Shown here piece after piece: positions 815 to 7,880 of a stretch of 14,983 nt of DNA (its first letter is position 1; each line of letters opens with the position of its first letter). The position numbers and the translations under genes are program-made. Origin of the DNA: an uncultured Clostridia bacterium (GTDB lineage Bacteria > Bacillota > Clostridia > Oscillospirales > Acutalibacteraceae); contig CAMJYF010000011.1 of the NCBI GenBank assembly GCA_946409885.1, positions 1 through 14,983 of the forward strand, written 5' to 3'. The notes under the pieces were generated by a model. That model searched no databases, was not told the origin of the DNA, and saw only the letters and a list, made by a program, of their open reading frames with translations.

Positions 815-1000
815 ATGAAAGACACCGGCAAGAACGACTATTATTTCGGCGTTTCCCCGCTGCCGGAAGATACCGTCACCACGATGGCTTACGTTCCTTT
901 TCAGACGGACCGGGATATGTTCGATGAGGACACCGCCCTTTGCAAGGGAACTTTATTCATAAATCTCAACAAACCTTTTTGCAGGGGCGCTTTGAAATGA
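815..1000 (+). CDS. cotJA: spore coat-associated protein CotJA
   Basis: A 61-residue protein of the CotJA family, a small spore-coat component made in the mother cell and encoded with CotJB and CotJC. The family signature is visible in the middle and end: MAYVPFQ, then a short acidic stretch, then ALCKGTLFINLNKPF. I chose ATG 815 because AAAGGAG at 798-804 lies 10 bases upstream. The in-frame ATG at 806 is only one base from that RBS. An open frame continues upstream into the heptamer array, but it has no RBS and is just the stop-free repeat. The stop overlaps the cotJB start (ATGA at 997-1000), so translation is probably coupled. The tail after KPF is very short (CRGALK). Confidence 0.9.
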   Translation: MKDTGKNDYYFGVSPLPEDTVTTMAYVPFQTDRDMFDEDTALCKGTLFINLNKPFCRGALK

Positions 1001-1248
1001 GCAAACGGGAAACGCTTCTGCGCAGGCTCTCCGCCGCCCAGTTCGCGCTGTGGGAGCTGCACCTGTACCTGAACACCCACCCCACCGACCTGGAGGCCCT
1101 GGCCATGCACGAACAGTATGAAGTAAAATGCGCCAGGCTCCGCGGCGAATATGAGGAAAAATACGGTCCCCTTTCCCCCATGAAGGGCGAAGGCGCGCAA
1201 TGGCTGCAAAACCCCTGGCCCTGGGACCCCACGGAGGATGACGGCTGA
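997..1248 (+). CDS. cotJB: spore coat protein CotJB
   Basis: An 83-residue protein matching CotJB. It has an N-terminal helical segment LLRRLSAAQFALWELHLYLN, the THPTDLEAL motif, the REYEEKYGPLSP-like core (here RGEYEEKYGPLSP) and the Trp/Pro-rich end WLQNPWPWDP. CotJB is known only as a small spore-coat component of the cotJ operon, and no enzymatic role is established. Start ATG 997 overlaps the cotJA stop by four bases. The stop TGA (1246-1248) shares its final base with the ATG of cotJC (1248-1250). The tight overlaps suggest stoichiometric, coupled translation of all three products. Confidence 0.93.
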   Translation: MSKRETLLRRLSAAQFALWELHLYLNTHPTDLEALAMHEQYEVKCARLRGEYEEKYGPLSPMKGEGAQWLQNPWPWDPTEDDG

Positions 1249-1847
1249 TGTGGCAATATGAAAAGAAACTGCAATACCCCGTAAAGATCAAAAACCCCAA
1301 CCCCAAGCTGGCGCAGATCATCATCACCCAATACGGCGGCCCCGACGGCGAGCTGGGCGCCTCCCTGCGCTACCTCTCCCAACGCTTTGCCATGCCATGG
1401 GCGGAGCTGAAAGGCCTTTTAACGGACATAGGGACGGAAGAGCTGGGCCATCTGGAAATGATCGGCGCCATTGTTTACCAGCTGACGCGCAATCTTTCCA
1501 TGGAGCAGATCAAAGCCGGCGGGTTTGACGCTTACTTTGTGGACCATACCACGGGCGTATACCCCTCCTCCGCAGCAGGCGTGCCTTTCACGGCGGCCTA
1601 TCTGCAGAGCAAGGGCGACGTGCTTACCGACCTGCATGAGAATCTGGCGGCGGAACAGAAGGCCCGCACCACCTACGACAACATTCTGCGGTTCGTGGAC
1701 GACCCGGACGTGGCGGACCCCATCAAATTCCTGCGGGAACGGGAGATCGTCCACTACCAGCGCTTCGGCGAGGGGCTGCGGCTGGCCACCGACCGGCTGG
1801 ACAGCAAGAACTTCTACGCCTTCAATCCATCCTTCGATAAAAAATAA
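1248..1847 (+). CDS. cotJC: CotJC, manganese catalase-family spore coat protein
   Basis: A 199-residue protein of the CotJC branch of the ferritin-like manganese catalases. Candidate dinuclear metal ligands are visible: Glu35 in GGPDGELGA, the EELGHLEM motif (Glu65, His68), a second-helix Glu in AAEQKART, and a C-terminal EREIVHYQRFGE with the E..H pattern. Family knowledge suggests hydrogen peroxide breakdown or protection at the spore coat. It is about two-thirds the length of full manganese catalases, as expected for CotJC. It starts inside the cotJB stop and is followed 24 bases later by a strong terminator, so it is the last gene of the cotJ operon. Confidence 0.93.
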   Translation: MWQYEKKLQYPVKIKNPNPKLAQIIITQYGGPDGELGASLRYLSQRFAMPWAELKGLLTDIGTEELGHLEMIGAIVYQLTRNLSMEQIKAGGFDAYFVDHTTGVYPSSAAGVPFTAAYLQSKGDVLTDLHENLAAEQKARTTYDNILRFVDDPDVADPIKFLREREIVHYQRFGEGLRLATDRLDSKNFYAFNPSFDKK

Positions 1848-1949: not shown

Positions 1950-1978
1950 TTGAATTTCACGCCTAATAATGTTAGAAT
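1950..1978 (+). promoter_or_regulatory. sigma-A-type promoter of the SPFH/ATPase operon
   Basis: -35 TTGAAT (1950-1955), a 17-bp spacer and -10 TAGAAT (1973-1978), in the AT-rich gap between the cotJC terminator and the next gene. The RBS GGGGGAAAG (1999-2007) and TTG start at 2014 follow. The next three gene junctions are short and show no other promoter, so it probably drives all four genes. Confidence 0.75.
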
Positions 1979-2013
1979 TAAAATATCTGTTTTGAAACGG
2001 GGGAAAGAAACAC

Positions 2014-3900
2014 TTGAAACGGCAAAAAGACGTCAGAACGTATCTTTTCCCGTGGGTACTGCTGACCGCGACGACCTTCTTTTTTTACGCAATCGAGGAG
2101 TATTCCGGGTACTTGTACGTCTTTGAACAATTCCTTACTATATGCAAATACTTTTCGTACGTTTACGCGCTGATCCTGCTGACGGAGTTTTTCCGCTACC
2201 GGATGGAGCATCCCGGCAAAAAAAGCGCGAAAAAGCATACAAAGCGCGCCGCCTTCCGCAGACGCAAAAAGGACCTGGCGGAACCGCCCGCCGCCGCGCC
2301 GGCGGAAACCGCGGAGACGACCGCCCCGGAAGAGGAACAGAAGGAAGAGGGACAAGCCCCGTCCGTCAAAGGAAAATGGCTGACCCGCGAGCGCCGGCTG
2401 ACGCTGCTGACGGCCGTACATATCGGCCTGCTGCTTTTCCTGCTGATCCGCTTCGGCCGGGTACAGTTCCCGGCGTTTTACGTGGGCACCATCAGCGGCA
2501 GCGGCACAGGCATCATCTTCATCGGCATCTGCCTGCTGGCGGCGGTGGTCTATTTTCTGATCGGCGGCTGGCTGAAGGGGCTCCCCAAAAAGCCCGGCAG
2601 CGCCACGGCGCAGGGGCTGGTGTTCTGCTGCGGCGTCATCTTCGCCCTTTCCGCGCTGTTCTTTACGCTGGATTATATGCTGCAGCTCAACTGCCTGCGC
2701 CTGCTGGTGTGGATCATCCGGGGGCTGTCGCTGGCCGTGATCGCGCTGTTCGCGGCCGGTCTGGCAGTAGGGCTCATCAAGAAAAACCTGCTGACGGATT
2801 TCGATTACCTCTTCCTGCTGAACCTCTATAAAGACGGCAAAACCAAAAACGTGGCTGATTTTTTGGAAGAACACACGGGGCTTTCCGTCAAATCCCTGTG
2901 GAGCATCCGCTACGCCGTCAGCCTGCTGCCTGCGGCCGTACTGTCGCTTGGCGCGGTGGTGCTGCTGGCCACCTGCTTTTACAAGGTGGATCCCCAGCAG
3001 CAGGCCGTCGTTTACCGCTTCGGTCAGATCAGCGACGCTTCCCCGGTGGGCTCCGGTCTGCACGTCAAGCTGCCCTGGCCCATCGACAAGGCGGAAATCT
3101 ACGATACGCAGCGGGTGAAAGAGGTGCTGGTGGGCTACGAAAAACAGCAGTCCGTGGATAACCTCTGGAACCAGGCCCATGGCGGAGAAGAATATAAACT
3201 GCTGCTGGGCAACGGCAACGAGCTGGTCTCCGTCAACATCAAGATCGCCTACGTGATCGACGATCTGCGCCGCTATGTGACGGCCTTTTCCTCCCCGGAG
3301 GACATCCTCACCGCCAAAGCCTATGAGATCATCCTCAGCAAAACGGTCTCCACCGATCTGGATACCTTCCTCAGCGTGGACCGCAGTGGCCTCTCCGCCG
3401 AGATCGCCAAGGACCTGAACGAGTTCTGCAGCGCTTCGGAGATCGGCCTGCGGGTCAACGGCGTTACCCTGGAAAGCATCCATCCCCCCATTGATATCGC
3501 CTCCGTCTATCAGGGCGTGGTCAGCGCGGGTGTGCAGAAAACAACGCTGATCACCAACGCGCAGGCCACGGAAGCGGAAAAGGTGGCCGCCGCCGAACAG
3601 GAGGCCAATACGCTGATCCTGGCGGCAAAGCAGGACCAGACGAAGCGCGTATCCGACGCGGAATATGAGATCTCCGGCTTTCTGGCCGCGGCCGAAGCCT
3701 ACCGGAAGCACCCCGGCGCCGTCACGCTGGCCAAATATCTGGATACCTTTGAGACCGTGGTTTCCGGCAACAAGGTCTACGTTTTTATCGGCGACCACGA
3801 CCTGACGGATTATATGATCAACTTTTCCGGCAACACCACCGTGGTGAACAATTCGGATCTGATACTTTCTTCCAAGCCCGCCAAAAGCGAGGCCAAATAA
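2014..3900 (+). CDS. polytopic SPFH/band-7 membrane protein (HflK-like, extended N-terminus)
   Basis: 628 residues with a TTG start, supported by GGGGGAAAG 7 bases upstream. Two hydrophobic segments (about 10-27 and 40-57) are followed by a long charged linker (about 60-125, rich in K/R, then A/E/P). Four more hydrophobic segments follow (about 128-250), then a cytosolic-looking stretch containing NVADFLEEHTGLSVKSLW and a seventh membrane segment (about 302-322). From Lys324 the protein is a typical SPFH domain: KVDPQQQAVVYRFG, a GLHVKLPWPID motif, and an Ala/Glu-rich coiled coil (VAAAEQEANTLILAAKQD). The C-terminal region resembles HflK, but ordinary HflK has one membrane segment and about 300-420 residues. 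It is the first gene of a four-gene operon, 27 bases before an hflC-like gene. Its function is unknown. A scaffold or modulator role for a membrane complex is inferred from the SPFH family. Confidence 0.85.
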   Translation: MKRQKDVRTYLFPWVLLTATTFFFYAIEEYSGYLYVFEQFLTICKYFSYVYALILLTEFFRYRMEHPGKKSAKKHTKRAAFRRRKKDLAEPPAAAPAETAETTAPEEEQKEEGQAPSVKGKWLTRERRLTLLTAVHIGLLLFLLIRFGRVQFPAFYVGTISGSGTGIIFIGICLLAAVVYFLIGGWLKGLPKKPGSATAQGLVFCCGVIFALSALFFTLDYMLQLNCLRLLVWIIRGLSLAVIALFAAGLAVGLIKKNLLTDFDYLFLLNLYKDGKTKNVADFLEEHTGLSVKSLWSIRYAVSLLPAAVLSLGAVVLLATCFYKVDPQQQAVVYRFGQISDASPVGSGLHVKLPWPIDKAEIYDTQRVKEVLVGYEKQQSVDNLWNQAHGGEEYKLLLGNGNELVSVNIKIAYVIDDLRRYVTAFSSPEDILTAKAYEIILSKTVSTDLDTFLSVDRSGLSAEIAKDLNEFCSASEIGLRVNGVTLESIHPPIDIASVYQGVVSAGVQKTTLITNAQATEAEKVAAAEQEANTLILAAKQDQTKRVSDAEYEISGFLAAAEAYRKHPGAVTLAKYLDTFETVVSGNKVYVFIGDHDLTDYMINFSGNTTVVNNSDLILSSKPAKSEAK

Positions 3901-3927
3901 CGCACAGACAGATCGGAGGGTCTACAA

Positions 3928-4806
3928 GTGAAAAAATGGATCAAATGGGTTTCGGCCGTTCTGCTGGCCGCTATCATCTTCGTTTACGGCTTCTGCTTTA
4001 CCGTTCGGGAGGGCAGCTACGCCATCGTTTCCCGTTTCGGCGAGGCGCGCAAGGTCTGTACCGACGCGGGGCTTTACCTCAAGCTCCCCTCTCCTTTTGA
4101 AAAGGTCATCACCTTTGACGCGCGAAGCCAGTATATGGATTCGGGCTATACGGAAACGCTGACCAACGACAAGAAAAATATCATCCTGCAGACCTACGTC
4201 ATCTGGCATATCAGCGACCCGCTGAAGTTTTATACCAGCGTGGGGGATTCCCAGAACGCGACGGTCTATCTGAACGACCTGACCTCCAACGTCAAAAACG
4301 GCGTCATGGGCAGCTATGAGCTTTCGGCGCTGGTTTCCACGGATCTGGACAATATAAAGATCGATGAGATCATCCGGGAAATGAAAACGCAGATCGCGGA
4401 AAAAGCCGAAAAGGACTACGGCATCCATGTGGAGGAGGTGCGCATCAAGCGGATCGCCCTGCCGGAGGACAACCTGCAGAGCGTGCTGGAGCAGATGATC
4501 GCCGACCGGGAAAAGCAGGTGACAAAGCTGCTTTCCGAAGGCAAGCGGGACGCCGCCCAGATCACCAGCGAGGCAGACGCCAGGGCAGCGGAGATCGTGG
4601 CCAACGGCCAGAAGGAGGCCGCCAAGATCAACGCGGAAACGGAAAAGAGGATCGCTGAGATCTACGGCGAAGCCTACGACGCCAATTCCGAGCTGTTCAT
4701 CTACCTGAAAAAGCTGATCGCGCTGGAAAATTCCGTTTCGGCGGATACCGTCATCATCATGAACGCGGAAGATTCCGCCTTTGACATTCTTTCCGCCGGC
4801 CAGTAA
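3928..4806 (+). CDS. hflC: SPFH-family protein, HflC-like
   Basis: 292 residues with a GTG start. GGAGGG at 3915-3920 lies 7 bases upstream. One N-terminal membrane anchor (about 7-25) is followed by the SPFH domain: REGSYAIVSRFGEARKV, then GLYLKLPSPFEKVITFDAR. Next come IILQTYVIWHISDPLKFY and the HflC-type RIKRIALPEDN with MIADREKQ, then a coiled coil of repeated EA/AAEI units and the C-terminal block SADTVIIMNAEDSAFDIL. In known systems HflC pairs with HflK and modulates the FtsH protease. No ftsH lies in this window and the neighbours are two other SPFH genes and a P-type ATPase, so the partner here may differ. Length is normal for HflC. Confidence 0.88.
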   Translation: MKKWIKWVSAVLLAAIIFVYGFCFTVREGSYAIVSRFGEARKVCTDAGLYLKLPSPFEKVITFDARSQYMDSGYTETLTNDKKNIILQTYVIWHISDPLKFYTSVGDSQNATVYLNDLTSNVKNGVMGSYELSALVSTDLDNIKIDEIIREMKTQIAEKAEKDYGIHVEEVRIKRIALPEDNLQSVLEQMIADREKQVTKLLSEGKRDAAQITSEADARAAEIVANGQKEAAKINAETEKRIAEIYGEAYDANSELFIYLKKLIALENSVSADTVIIMNAEDSAFDILSAGQ

Positions 4807-4842
4807 GCCGCCGCGCAGACCGCAATAAAGGACGCGATTGAT

Positions 4843-5811
4843 ATGAAAAAGAAAAGCATCGAAATCTTTGAGGGCTTTCTCAATTCCGGCATCCGGTACT
4901 TTAAATGGGTATTGGTGGTGGCGGCGGCCGTCATTCTGCTGACCGGCGTTTACAAGGTGGACAGCAGCGAGGTGGCCGTGGTGCTGCGATTCGGGGCCAT
5001 CACCGGGGATACCCGCGAAGACCAGATCAAGCAGCCGGGGCTGCATTTCTCTCTGCCGAACTTTATCGACGAGGTGGTAAAGATCCCGGTGGAACGGATC
5101 CAGGAGCTTTCCGTCGGCACGCTTTACGGCACCGGCGCCACGGTGGGCAACCCGGTGCAGAACAACGGCTACGCCATTACGGGCGACAGCAACATCGTCA
5201 GGATGGACGTGGTGCTGAAATATAAGATCAGCGACCCGGTGGCCTACGCGCTGCGGGTAAACGACCTTTCCGCCACCCTCAACGGGATCATCACCGGCGA
5301 AATGACCGCCATGATCACCAGGACCGCCGTGGACGACGTACTGACCACGGAAAAATCCGCCCTCACCTCCCAGACCATGAAAAACGCGCAGGCCGTCATC
5401 GATACCACCGGCCTTGGCGTAACGCTGACCAACATAGAGCTGACGATCATCACCCCGCCCGCGGAGGCCATTGACGCATTCAACAAGGCGACCACCGCCT
5501 CCGTGCAGAAGCAGACGCTGATCCAGCAGGCAAAGGACTACGAGGAATCGGCCATTCCGGCGGCGGAGGCCACCTCCAAAAAGCTGGTGGACGACGCCAA
5601 CGCGGCCCAATCCGCCGCGGTGGCGAAAGCGACCGCCGTAGCGGAGGAATTCAACGGACTGTTCCAACAGTACACCCGCAACCCGGAAGTGATCAAAAAC
5701 GGCGTGTTCCGCACCAGGGTCAGCAAGGTGCTGCAGCAGAGCGGCGCCACCATCGTGACGCCCCAAACGGAGGGCGGAACCACGCGGGTGGTCCTGCCGA
5801 ATATGCGATAA
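4843..5811 (+). CDS. hflK: SPFH-family protein, HflK-like
   Basis: 322 residues. AAAGGA at 4827-4832 precedes ATG 4843. A single membrane segment (about 22-38) is followed by VDSSEVAVVLRFGAITG, GLHFSLPNFIDEVVKIP, a DVVLKYKISDPVAY strand pair and the HflK-like ELTIITPPAEAIDAFNKAT. A short Ala-rich coiled coil and a basic C-terminus ending in RVVLPNMR follow. The proline pair after the last strand is typical of HflK. An insertion-like loop (GTLYGTGATVGNPVQNNGY) sits between the second and third SPFH strands. It lies 36 bases after the hflC-like gene and 29 bases before the ATPase. It is clearly a third SPFH paralogue rather than a duplicate of the first, which has a different N-terminus. Confidence 0.85.
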   Translation: MKKKSIEIFEGFLNSGIRYFKWVLVVAAAVILLTGVYKVDSSEVAVVLRFGAITGDTREDQIKQPGLHFSLPNFIDEVVKIPVERIQELSVGTLYGTGATVGNPVQNNGYAITGDSNIVRMDVVLKYKISDPVAYALRVNDLSATLNGIITGEMTAMITRTAVDDVLTTEKSALTSQTMKNAQAVIDTTGLGVTLTNIELTIITPPAEAIDAFNKATTASVQKQTLIQQAKDYEESAIPAAEATSKKLVDDANAAQSAAVAKATAVAEEFNGLFQQYTRNPEVIKNGVFRTRVSKVLQQSGATIVTPQTEGGTTRVVLPNMR

Positions 5812-5840
5812 GGCCAATACTTACACCGGGAGACAACTTT

Positions 5841-7802
5841 ATGAAAAAAATCGATCATATGGCGGAGGAATCCCTGCGGGAACAATCCACCACCTATATT
5901 TCCGAAAAGGATAAGAAACGGCTGTCGGGGTCGATCGCCTCCTCCGCGGCGGCGCTGGTCTTTTTTGCCGCGGGGCTGATTTTCGGCCGCGTTTATCCGG
6001 ATCAGACGGTGATCTCCGAGCTGATCTATCTGGTCAGCGTGCTGATCATCGGCATTCCCGTGCTGACCACCGCCGTCAAGGGATTTCTGCGGCGGGACGT
6101 AAGCGCCTCCATGGAGATCCTGGTTTCCGTGGCCATGGTGGTGGCTGTGCTGGACGGCCAGTTCGTCGTGGCGATCCTCATCCCCGTCATTCTGACCGTC
6201 GTGCATTTCTTTGAGGAAAAGAGCATTATGGGCGGGCGGGACGCCATCGAGGGACTGAAAAAGATGCAGGCCCAAACCGCGCTGCTGTATCAGGACGGCA
6301 AGGAGCGGGAGGTGGACGCCAAATCCCTGCAGCCGGGGGACGTGATCCACGTCAAATCCGGCATGTCGCTGCCCATCGACGGCACGGTACAGATGGGCGA
6401 GGCCAACATGGACCAGAAGTCCCTGACCGGCGAATCCCTGCCCAAAAGCGTGGGCGTGGGCGATAAAGTCTACGCGGGCACCATGAACATCGACGGCCTG
6501 CTGACCGTGCGGGTGGACAAAGCCTACGTAGATACCTCCTTCAACCGCATCGTGCGGCTGCTGGAAAACGCGGAAAACATGACGCTTCCCGAAACGCGCC
6601 TGGTGGACCGCTTCATGAAATACTATATTCCCTTCGTGCTGGTGGTGGCGGCGCTGATCTGGTTCTTCACCAAGGATATCTCCAAGGCCATCGCGGTGCT
6701 GGTGGTCAGCTGCCCCTGCGGGTATATGCTGGTCTCCTCCGCGCCGATCATCGCCGCGCTGGGCGCCGCCAGCAAACGGGGCGTACTGATCAAAAACCCC
6801 GCCTTTATCGAAAAGCTGACGGACGCGGATTCCTTCCTCTTCGACAAGACGGGTACCATCACCAACGGTACGCTGGAAGCGGTGGATACGGAGCTGTTCG
6901 CGGCAAAGGACCGGGAAGAGCTGCTTACCACCGCCGCGGCCGTGGCCCACGGCTCGCTCCACCCCACCTCCAAAGCCATCGTCCGGCTGTGCGGTGAGCT
7001 TCCCTACGACAGTGATTATATCATCACCGAACCGGCGGGCAACGGCGTTTCCGGCACAAAGGGGAAAGATACCGTCATTTTGGGCAGCCGCCGTTATCTG
7101 AACAGGCTGGGCTGCCGCCTCCCCCGGGAGGACGCGGACAGCGGCTCCACCACCTGGGTGGCCAGAAACGGCAGCGTGCTGGGGTGCATCGTGTTCCGCG
7201 ACGTACTGCGGGAAGACGTGTCGGAAGCCTTTGACGCGCTGCGCGGCATCGGCGTGAACAAGATCTCCGTCCTGACCGGCGACAACAGAGCGGAGGCGCG
7301 GAAGATCGCGGAGGCCGTCCGCGTGGACGCCATGCACAGCGAGCTGCTGCCCGAGCAGAAGCTGGAGATGCTGAAAAAGGAAAAGGAAGACCACACCGTT
7401 GCCATGGTGGGCGACGGCATCAACGATTCCCTGGCGCTGAACGAGGCGGATATCGGCATCGCCATGGGGGCCATGGGCTCCGACACGGCCATTGAAAGCG
7501 CCGATATCTCCCTGATGAACAACTCCCTGATGAACCTGCCCTTTGTGGTGCTGCTGGCCCGCAAGACGAAGGAGATCATCAATCAGAATATCATCATTGC
7601 TTTTCTGACCAGCTTCGTGATGATCTTTCTGGCGGCCATGGGGCTCATCTCCCCCATCGTCGGCGCGTTTCTGCACAACGCCGGCGCGTTCATCGTGCTG
7701 TTCAACAGCGCCAGAGTGGTCAAAGCCGATTACGACCCGAAAAAAGCGGCAAAGGAAAAACAGGAAGCGGAAACAGCACCCTCCGAAGGCGGACAGGCCT
7801 GA
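5841..7802 (+). CDS. P1B-like cation-translocating P-type ATPase, atypical
   Basis: 653 residues. GGGAG about 8 bases upstream supports ATG 5841. All P-type ATPase hallmarks are present: TGES at 196-199 (actuator), phosphorylated Asp335 in DKTGT, a P1B-type HP pair at 374-375 in the nucleotide domain, and GDGINDS at 524-530. About four membrane segments precede the actuator, then a pair around 255-310, and two at the C-terminus ending in GAFLHNAGAFIVLFNSARVV, where P1B pumps carry metal-site residues. The membrane motif is SCPCGYMLVSSAPI with CPC at 291-293. The usual CPC-A-L-x-x-x-T-P pattern is changed, with Ser-Ser where Thr-Pro is expected. There is no N-terminal CXXC or His-rich metal domain. 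The transported ion cannot be named. It is the last gene of the SPFH operon, which suggests a pump held within an SPFH assembly (inference). Confidence 0.9.
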   Translation: MKKIDHMAEESLREQSTTYISEKDKKRLSGSIASSAAALVFFAAGLIFGRVYPDQTVISELIYLVSVLIIGIPVLTTAVKGFLRRDVSASMEILVSVAMVVAVLDGQFVVAILIPVILTVVHFFEEKSIMGGRDAIEGLKKMQAQTALLYQDGKEREVDAKSLQPGDVIHVKSGMSLPIDGTVQMGEANMDQKSLTGESLPKSVGVGDKVYAGTMNIDGLLTVRVDKAYVDTSFNRIVRLLENAENMTLPETRLVDRFMKYYIPFVLVVAALIWFFTKDISKAIAVLVVSCPCGYMLVSSAPIIAALGAASKRGVLIKNPAFIEKLTDADSFLFDKTGTITNGTLEAVDTELFAAKDREELLTTAAAVAHGSLHPTSKAIVRLCGELPYDSDYIITEPAGNGVSGTKGKDTVILGSRRYLNRLGCRLPREDADSGSTTWVARNGSVLGCIVFRDVLREDVSEAFDALRGIGVNKISVLTGDNRAEARKIAEAVRVDAMHSELLPEQKLEMLKKEKEDHTVAMVGDGINDSLALNEADIGIAMGAMGSDTAIESADISLMNNSLMNLPFVVLLARKTKEIINQNIIIAFLTSFVMIFLAAMGLISPIVGAFLHNAGAFIVLFNSARVVKADYDPKKAAKEKQEAETAPSEGGQA

Positions 7803-7842
7803 CGCGCGGGCGTACAGGAAAGAAAACAGAAACAAAAAAAGA

Positions 7843-7880
7843 CGCGGGGCGCTGCGTAAAACAGCAGCCCCGCGGTTTTT
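7843..7880. terminator. bidirectional terminator between ATPase gene and upp
   Basis: CGCGGGGCGCTG (7843-7854) pairs with CAGC-A-GCCCCGCG (7862-7874, one bulged A) around loop CGTAAAA. The plus strand continues into TTTTT (7876-7880). On the minus strand the stem is followed by TCTTTTTTT (from 7842 leftwards). It therefore can end both the plus-strand ATPase operon and the convergent minus-strand upp gene. Confidence 0.9.

Follow-up and report, generated by a model that had tools for sequence, protein, structure and literature searches.

Membrane cages of SPFH proteins are widespread, and to our knowledge dedicated bacterial clients other than proteases are rarely known. Here we describe an operon at positions 2014-7802 of a 14,983-nucleotide stretch of DNA from an uncultured Clostridia bacterium (the window, which is the complete contig G000:C11 of a source genome that is 69% complete). 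In this operon, genes for a long, polytopic HflK-like protein, an HflC-type protein, and a short HflK-type protein are followed by the gene for a P1B-type ATPase. Two phyla share this conserved four-gene unit, whose pumps form a clade of their own and whose polytopic SPFH protein is likewise private to it. Its individual parts are already known, as is a zinc-responsive cluster in Pseudomonas aeruginosa. Our literature searches found no paper on the conserved four-gene module as a kind, and as far as they go the module is undescribed, as are its hallmark, the polytopic HflK, and its clostridial branch, in which the pump motif appears rebuilt.

Described systems related to the module

The P. aeruginosa cluster PA2434-PA2439 is reported to encode the P-type ATPase HmtA (PA2435), two proteins of the HflC family (PA2437 and PA2438) and one of the HflK family (PA2439) (PMC4542158). 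Five listed genes of the cluster, PA2436 not among them, are given with 5.6- to 14.4-fold induction upon mutation of znuA (PMC4542158, Table 2). Under zinc limitation the cluster proteins are described as more abundant, an increase that the authors call significant for PA2438 and PA2439 (PMC11761036), and Zur is reported to bind the promoter of the first gene of the hmtA locus (PMC8531726). HmtA itself is described as an importer of zinc and copper that does not take up silver or cadmium (PMC8456098), and its overexpression is reported to increase cell zinc and copper (PMC10393844). Judged from sequence, the module is of the same kind as this cluster, which likewise combines a P1B ATPase with three HflC/HflK-family genes in one locus reported as zinc-responsive (PMC4542158, PMC8531726). 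Two P. aeruginosa-labelled pumps, P0267 and P0280, group within the proteobacterial branch of module pumps and have each of the 10 signature residues checked, and from the published neighbours we infer that they are PA2435. Two genes of the cluster, PA2434 and PA2436, set it apart, since the four-gene order contains nothing equivalent.

Human stomatin is regarded as a cytoplasmic SPFH protein. Its domes are reported to enclose aquaporin-1 or UT-B (PMC12407830), a precedent for an SPFH dome around a transporter, although built from a single SPFH species and around unrelated, passive transporters. The third comparison is with HflK/HflC and FtsH of Escherichia coli, where joint replacement of HflK residues R141, E142, and R185 by alanine is reported to lower FtsH recovery or binding (PMC13220708). 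The module likewise encodes HflK and HflC homologues together, but it also has a polytopic HflK as third member and encodes a P1B pump alongside, and in its short HflK the basic residue at the R185 position is mostly lost.

The operon in the window

The module comprises the following features, all on the + strand:
1950-1978, +, promoter-like site TTGAAT-17-TAGAAT with an extended -10 TG (consensus scan only, 9 of 12 matches)
2014-3900, +, long (polytopic) HflK, TTG start, 628 residues
3928-4806, +, HflC-type SPFH protein, GTG start, 292 residues
4843-5811, +, short HflK-type SPFH protein, 322 residues
5841-7802, +, P1B-type ATPase, 653 residues
7843-7882, +, intrinsic terminator (hairpin 7843-7874 followed by a U run, -26 kcal/mol, z -4.78)

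A preliminary description, made from the sequence alone, had read this region as a promoter, three SPFH genes, a P1B-like ATPase gene, and one terminator. Open reading frames and family profiles bear out the four genes, all on the + strand, and the described intergenic gaps of 27, 36, and 29 bases exactly. The single terminator, a strong one, was likewise recovered from its hairpin energy, z score, and U run; it also faces the convergent upp gene. The promoter fared less well: the site is there, but as a consensus match it is weak evidence because 12 sites of comparable grade occur in the window against 5.4 in shuffled sequence.

Conservation of the four-gene order

Starting from the SPFH side, long HflK was sought in one genome per species with two peptide patterns drawn from its own family, a scan that misses distant forms. 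It returned 65 loci, comprising 64 with the polytopic HflK and one ordinary alphaproteobacterial hflKC locus (L127). The 64 are labelled Clostridia, Clostridiales, Oscillospiraceae, Ruminococcaceae or similar, one only as 'uncultured bacterium'. In 55 of them the genes for long HflK, HflC, HflK, and P1B follow one another on one strand as in the window, while in eight (L063, L067, L073, L074, L078, L079, L084, and L119) the contig ends before the pump gene is reached. This order is kept although identity among the clostridial relatives falls as low as 22% for the long HflKs and 40% for the pumps, and the flanking genes vary. Even the commonest flanking family, the BspA-type leucine-rich repeat proteins, adjoins only 16 of the 64 loci. 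These genes lie upstream of the module (for example L108:7150-8205), often as a tandem pair, of which the nearer gene stops no more than a few bases from the long HflK frame.

At the remaining locus, L116 (8986-11077), long HflK breaks off at residue 405, and the C-terminal part of the pump begins within 2 bases of it, from residue 346 onwards; the junction contains no stretch of N. This fusion may be a misassembly or a deletion.

A class survey of 245 genomes placed the module in the source genome and in one genome of another family, G059, the only one of five sampled genomes of genus g34 to have it. The G+C content of this second copy (L128) is 0.411, against 0.381 and 0.424 in its flanks; the module resembles its surroundings, and transfer, if any, is therefore not recent or stems from a similar genome. 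Ordinary hflK and hflC genes did not share the association. The class survey listed 28 two-gene hflK-hflC loci, of which 19 were fetched, and seven plasmid hflKC loci were opened out of 55 records; in none of them did the fetched stretch contain a P1B gene.

The pump was also used as the starting point, in surveys that scored only the best three or four first-look candidates per genome. In 295 genomes of the order, a module-pump profile gave five matches at E <= 1e-180 (922.6-1070.7 bits, own pump included), all five within a module. Three of the four non-own matches are on contigs equal in length to those of loci from the long HflK scan and are probably identical to them, so that the survey serves as a second search direction more than as a source of new species. 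In the 398 genomes surveyed across the phylum, the score falls from 1070.7 bits for the own pump to 522.3 for the runner-up. The 20 nearest other P1B pumps, namely the 19 next-best of the phylum survey and the best other pump of the class survey, had no SPFH gene in stretches reaching to about 5 kb or the contig end. Within the same limit on candidates, the pump surveys contained no solo member of the module ATPase clade.

Outside this phylum, a survey of 378 Pseudomonadota genomes yielded 10 pumps at E <= 1e-140 (519.1-543.1 bits), all of them in the order long HflK (655-713 residues), HflC, HflK, P1B. When named plasmids were searched with the pump at E <= 1e-110 and with the long HflK at E <= 1e-20, both searches matched one and the same set of 10 records. 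All four plasmids opened, from Klebsiella aerogenes, Rhizobium tumorigenes, Paraburkholderia sprentiae, and Burkholderia ubonensis, carry the four genes in order. The preliminary description had proposed a neighbourhood survey of the ATPase and held that synteny across distant phyla would support its reading. The ATPase subfamily indeed stands beside three SPFH genes wherever the contig reaches, except at L116, and does so on the clostridial side and in Pseudomonadota. From these searches the link between the SPFH trio and the pump clade looks exclusive, and with a cage gene set and one pump clade thus paired in two phyla a client can be named ahead of experiment.

Several proteobacterial copies have features of their own. 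The HflC frame of one (L226:7714-8697) is split into two adjoining pieces, and in another (L229) about 600 bases precede the pump gene. A conjugative plasmid of K. aerogenes carries an entire copy (L208), with a Tn3-family transposase gene some 2.4 kb away. The Paraburkholderia copy is preceded (L237:1-3975) by genes for a PCu(A)C copper chaperone and for metal ABC permeases.

The SPFH proteins and FtsH

All three SPFH proteins of the window pass Pfam Band_7, with 59.3, 95.4, and 92.1 bits in gene order (cut-off 23.6). The product of 3928-4806 passes NCBIfam hflC TIGR01932 (152.7 bits, cut-off 134.4) and that of 4843-5811 passes hflK TIGR01933 (164.7 bits, cut-off 159.4); hydropathy gives each a single N-terminal membrane helix. 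The product of 2014-3900 is HflK-like, yet at 105.6 bits it remains under the hflK cut-off of 159.4. Five hydrophobic segments before or at the start of its SPFH domain exceed the hydropathy threshold, and an AlphaFold model (predicted local distance difference test score 77.5) adds two further N-terminal helices that lie under it, so that the long HflK probably has seven membrane helices. A cytoplasmic LEEHTGLSVKSLW motif, the SPFH domain, and a coiled coil are its other recognisable parts. The helix arrangement of the membrane domain is ZnT1-like. A CDF/ZnT transporter was considered for this domain and rejected, the HxxxD/DxxxD motif of the intramembrane metal site falling within a hydrophobic stretch in none of 56 long HflKs.

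Profile comparison shows that the long HflKs of the two phyla are homologous. They match at 99.9% (E 1e-34, columns 162-597), over a region that spans the later membrane helices through the SPFH domain. The alignment sets LEEHTGLSVKSLW against LQQRFGIDLRQVW, just ahead of the last membrane helix. A motif of the form E-[SNGA]-I-H-P-[PAV] occurs in 52 of 56 clostridial and 11 of 11 proteobacterial long HflKs, and in none of the 56 and 11 short module HflKs or 19 canonical HflKs.

Absence of FtsH was part of the preliminary description. This holds for the operon, and no ftsH was found among the genes identified in the window, but it does not hold for the genome: contig C86 of the source genome has a full FtsH (M41) match. 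FtsH was present in all 10 genomes searched, six of them with the module. A second, partial M41 match lies at G000:C44:803-1114, within an open frame of 1125 residues. The position equivalent to E. coli R185 is basic in 15 of 19 canonical clostridial HflKs and six of seven plasmid HflKs. Among short module HflKs, it is basic in two of the 55 shown (of 56) from Clostridia and in none of 14 from proteobacteria; among long HflKs, the counts are one of 56 and 11 of 14. The R141 and E142 positions do not discriminate, since they vary in canonical HflKs too. This pattern of residues leans towards a loss of FtsH binding by the short module HflK.

The pump and its clade

The product of 5841-7802 passes the heavy-metal P-type ATPase family TIGR01525 with 492.3 bits (cut-off 346.25). 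It contains the motifs TGE, DKTGT, HP, GDGIND, and CPC, and DKTGT, GDG(I/V)ND, HP, and CPC are each present in 57 of 57 module pumps of the motif set. Cys291, Cys293, His612, and Asn613 of the clostridial pump are conserved residues. Compared with P1B pumps of the CopA/ZntA type, the window pump has no HMA domain, module pumps carry private clade residues, and the clostridial M4 mostly departs from CPC(x)6P.

A midpoint-rooted tree was built from 61 clostridial (up to three of them doubles) and 11 proteobacterial module pumps together with 56 other P1B pumps. These 56, all from genomes of the window's own phylum, fall outside a single group that unites the module pumps with a support of 0.961. 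With three more Pseudomonas sequences the support is 0.931. P115, H122, and G131 are found in 72 of 72 module pumps and none of the 56 others, S128 in 72 of 72 and two of 56, and A301 in 71 of 72 and none of 56. Four of these residues (P115, H122, S128, and G131) fall in helix 108-141 of the pump model.

The known CPC(x)6P subgroups of P1B ATPases are defined by the position of this proline. The M4 and M6 motifs of the proteobacterial module pumps, ACPCALVLSAP and HNxSTL, retain this proline spacing. The clostridial motifs are mostly SCPCGxMLVSSAP and HNxGAF instead: CPCGxMLVSSAP or a near variant occurs in at least 59 of 61 clostridial module pumps, with the proline shifted by two and thus outside the CPC(x)6P placement. 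Compared with the proteobacterial branch, to which HmtA would belong, the metal motif of the clostridial module pumps appears rebuilt.

Possible metal control

A Zur-type palindrome is found upstream of the first gene in two of the 11 proteobacterial copies, L226 and L230, with 0 and 1 mismatches of 12 and at equal distance. The other nine have 3 to 6 mismatches, and in shuffled upstream regions (L226, L229, and L208) the best match never had fewer than 2. None of the 64 clostridial upstream regions has a good Zur-, Fur-, PerR- or CsoR-type site; weak matches of PerR-like and Zur-like kind are mildly in excess there. The lack of a good Zur-type site is a further difference from the hmtA cluster. 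MarR, CsoR, TetR, and ArsR regulators, which occur beside the control pumps, are not among the 25 commonest families adjoining the module. The preliminary suggestion of a metal-responsive microdomain thus draws support only from the reported zinc responses in P. aeruginosa and from the Zur-type boxes of two proteobacterial copies, and not from the clostridial upstream regions or the flanking families. For its companion, a stress-responsive microdomain, the present analysis yielded no evidence.

Proposed mechanism and alternatives

Since the pump clade adjoins the SPFH trio, and the ordinary hflKC loci and other P1B pumps examined lack such a neighbour, the pump is taken to be the functional partner of the SPFH set. 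This part of the preliminary idea that the ion pump is the client of the SPFH cage is well supported by synteny; the physical association it also implied is suggested by analogy. Guided by the stomatin precedent, we consider it fairly likely that a dedicated P1B pump for zinc- or copper-type ions is housed in an outside-facing dome formed by the three SPFH proteins. Long HflK, HflC, and short HflK would co-assemble into an SPFH dome on the outer membrane face, as HflK/C structures and homology suggest, and this dome, together with the long HflK's membrane domain, would surround the pump, as in stomatin-transporter complexes. The pump would use ATP to move a zinc- or copper-type ion, with ion and import direction extrapolated from P. 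aeruginosa HmtA. The dome would keep the pump within a closed membrane patch and cover its outer mouth, and ion access, pump oligomerisation or turnover would be governed there, not by FtsH proteolysis alone. A bolder version, which we put forward only as a tentative and less than even possibility, is that the three SPFH subunits seal the pump in a private patch, with the dome serving as a metal vestibule that fixes ion and net direction and the rebuilt clostridial site serving another ion or mode. If true, such a vestibule would account for the disputed import by HmtA. The module also suggests how a P1B ATPase could come to be reported, oddly, as a metal importer, and, being expressible in ordinary laboratory strains, it provides a system in which control of transporters by SPFH domes can be tested.

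Several points weigh against the proposed dome around an importing pump. The dome-pump complex is itself drawn from the stomatin analogy, and a role together with FtsH may be possible. The import direction of HmtA has been called in need of confirmation (PMC10393844), and one study is reported to have found hmtA mRNA constantly low and unrepressed by zinc (PMC8531726). Zinc control is not seen upstream of the clostridial copies, and the metal motifs in M4 and M6 differ between the phyla, so the ion may differ too. Pairwise distances of the four clostridial proteins do correlate (r 0.875-0.946, 1540 pairs), but such correlation could also be expected from shared descent alone, and solo pump copies could be missed given the candidate limit of the pump surveys.

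The SPFH trio might instead be a second FtsH regulator of the HflK/C type, with the pump as its main proteolytic client and surplus or damaged pump fed to the FtsH encoded elsewhere in the genome. The homology of the trio to HflK/C, the presence of FtsH in every genome searched, all six module genomes included, and the basic residue at the R185 position in 11 of 14 proteobacterial long HflKs fit this reading, as does the case of a P-type ATPase of E. coli, MgtA, which is named among the substrates of FtsH (PMC13220708). We nevertheless regard it as rather improbable, given that R185, one of the three residues tied to FtsH recovery, is basic in most canonical HflKs and rarely so in the short module HflK. 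The pump might also work in the opposite direction, as an exporter loading metal into the dome-enclosed outer compartment for secreted metalloenzymes or safe release, in which case the import reading of HmtA would not be transferable. P1B pumps with CPC motifs are described as normally exporting (PMC10393844), the catalytic motifs of the module pumps are intact, no clear sign of zinc-starvation control lies upstream of the clostridial copies, and a PCu(A)C copper chaperone gene stands beside the Paraburkholderia copy. Set against this, the regulators typical of such pumps are not among the commonest module-flanking families, and cells overexpressing HmtA are reported to contain more zinc and copper (PMC10393844), which leaves export unlikely in our view.

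That the genes were joined once and have since travelled as a mobile block, sharing an operon without acting jointly, seems very unlikely. The patchy presence in genus g34 (one of five sampled genomes) and the plasmid copies, one of them near a Tn3-family transposase, speak for mobility. However, the order has been kept down to 22% identity of the long HflKs while the flanks changed, and the surveys, within their limit of three or four scored candidates per genome, contained no solo member of the ATPase clade. Transfer as a single block moreover argues for joint use of the genes.

Neighbouring genes and other features of the window

The module is flanked by cotJB and manganese catalase genes on one side and by the convergent upp gene on the other. 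In the former pair (window 940-1847), cotJB is followed directly by a short manganese catalase (CotJC-like, 199 residues), and the pair is of spore-coat type. Between the tRNA genes and cotJB lies a tandem array (603-736) of about nine copies of a 14-base unit, with 95% matches. Two long - strand open frames run opposite the module genes, at 1978-3798 (606 residues) and 5538-7835 (765 residues), and are most likely a codon-bias effect of G+C-rich DNA.

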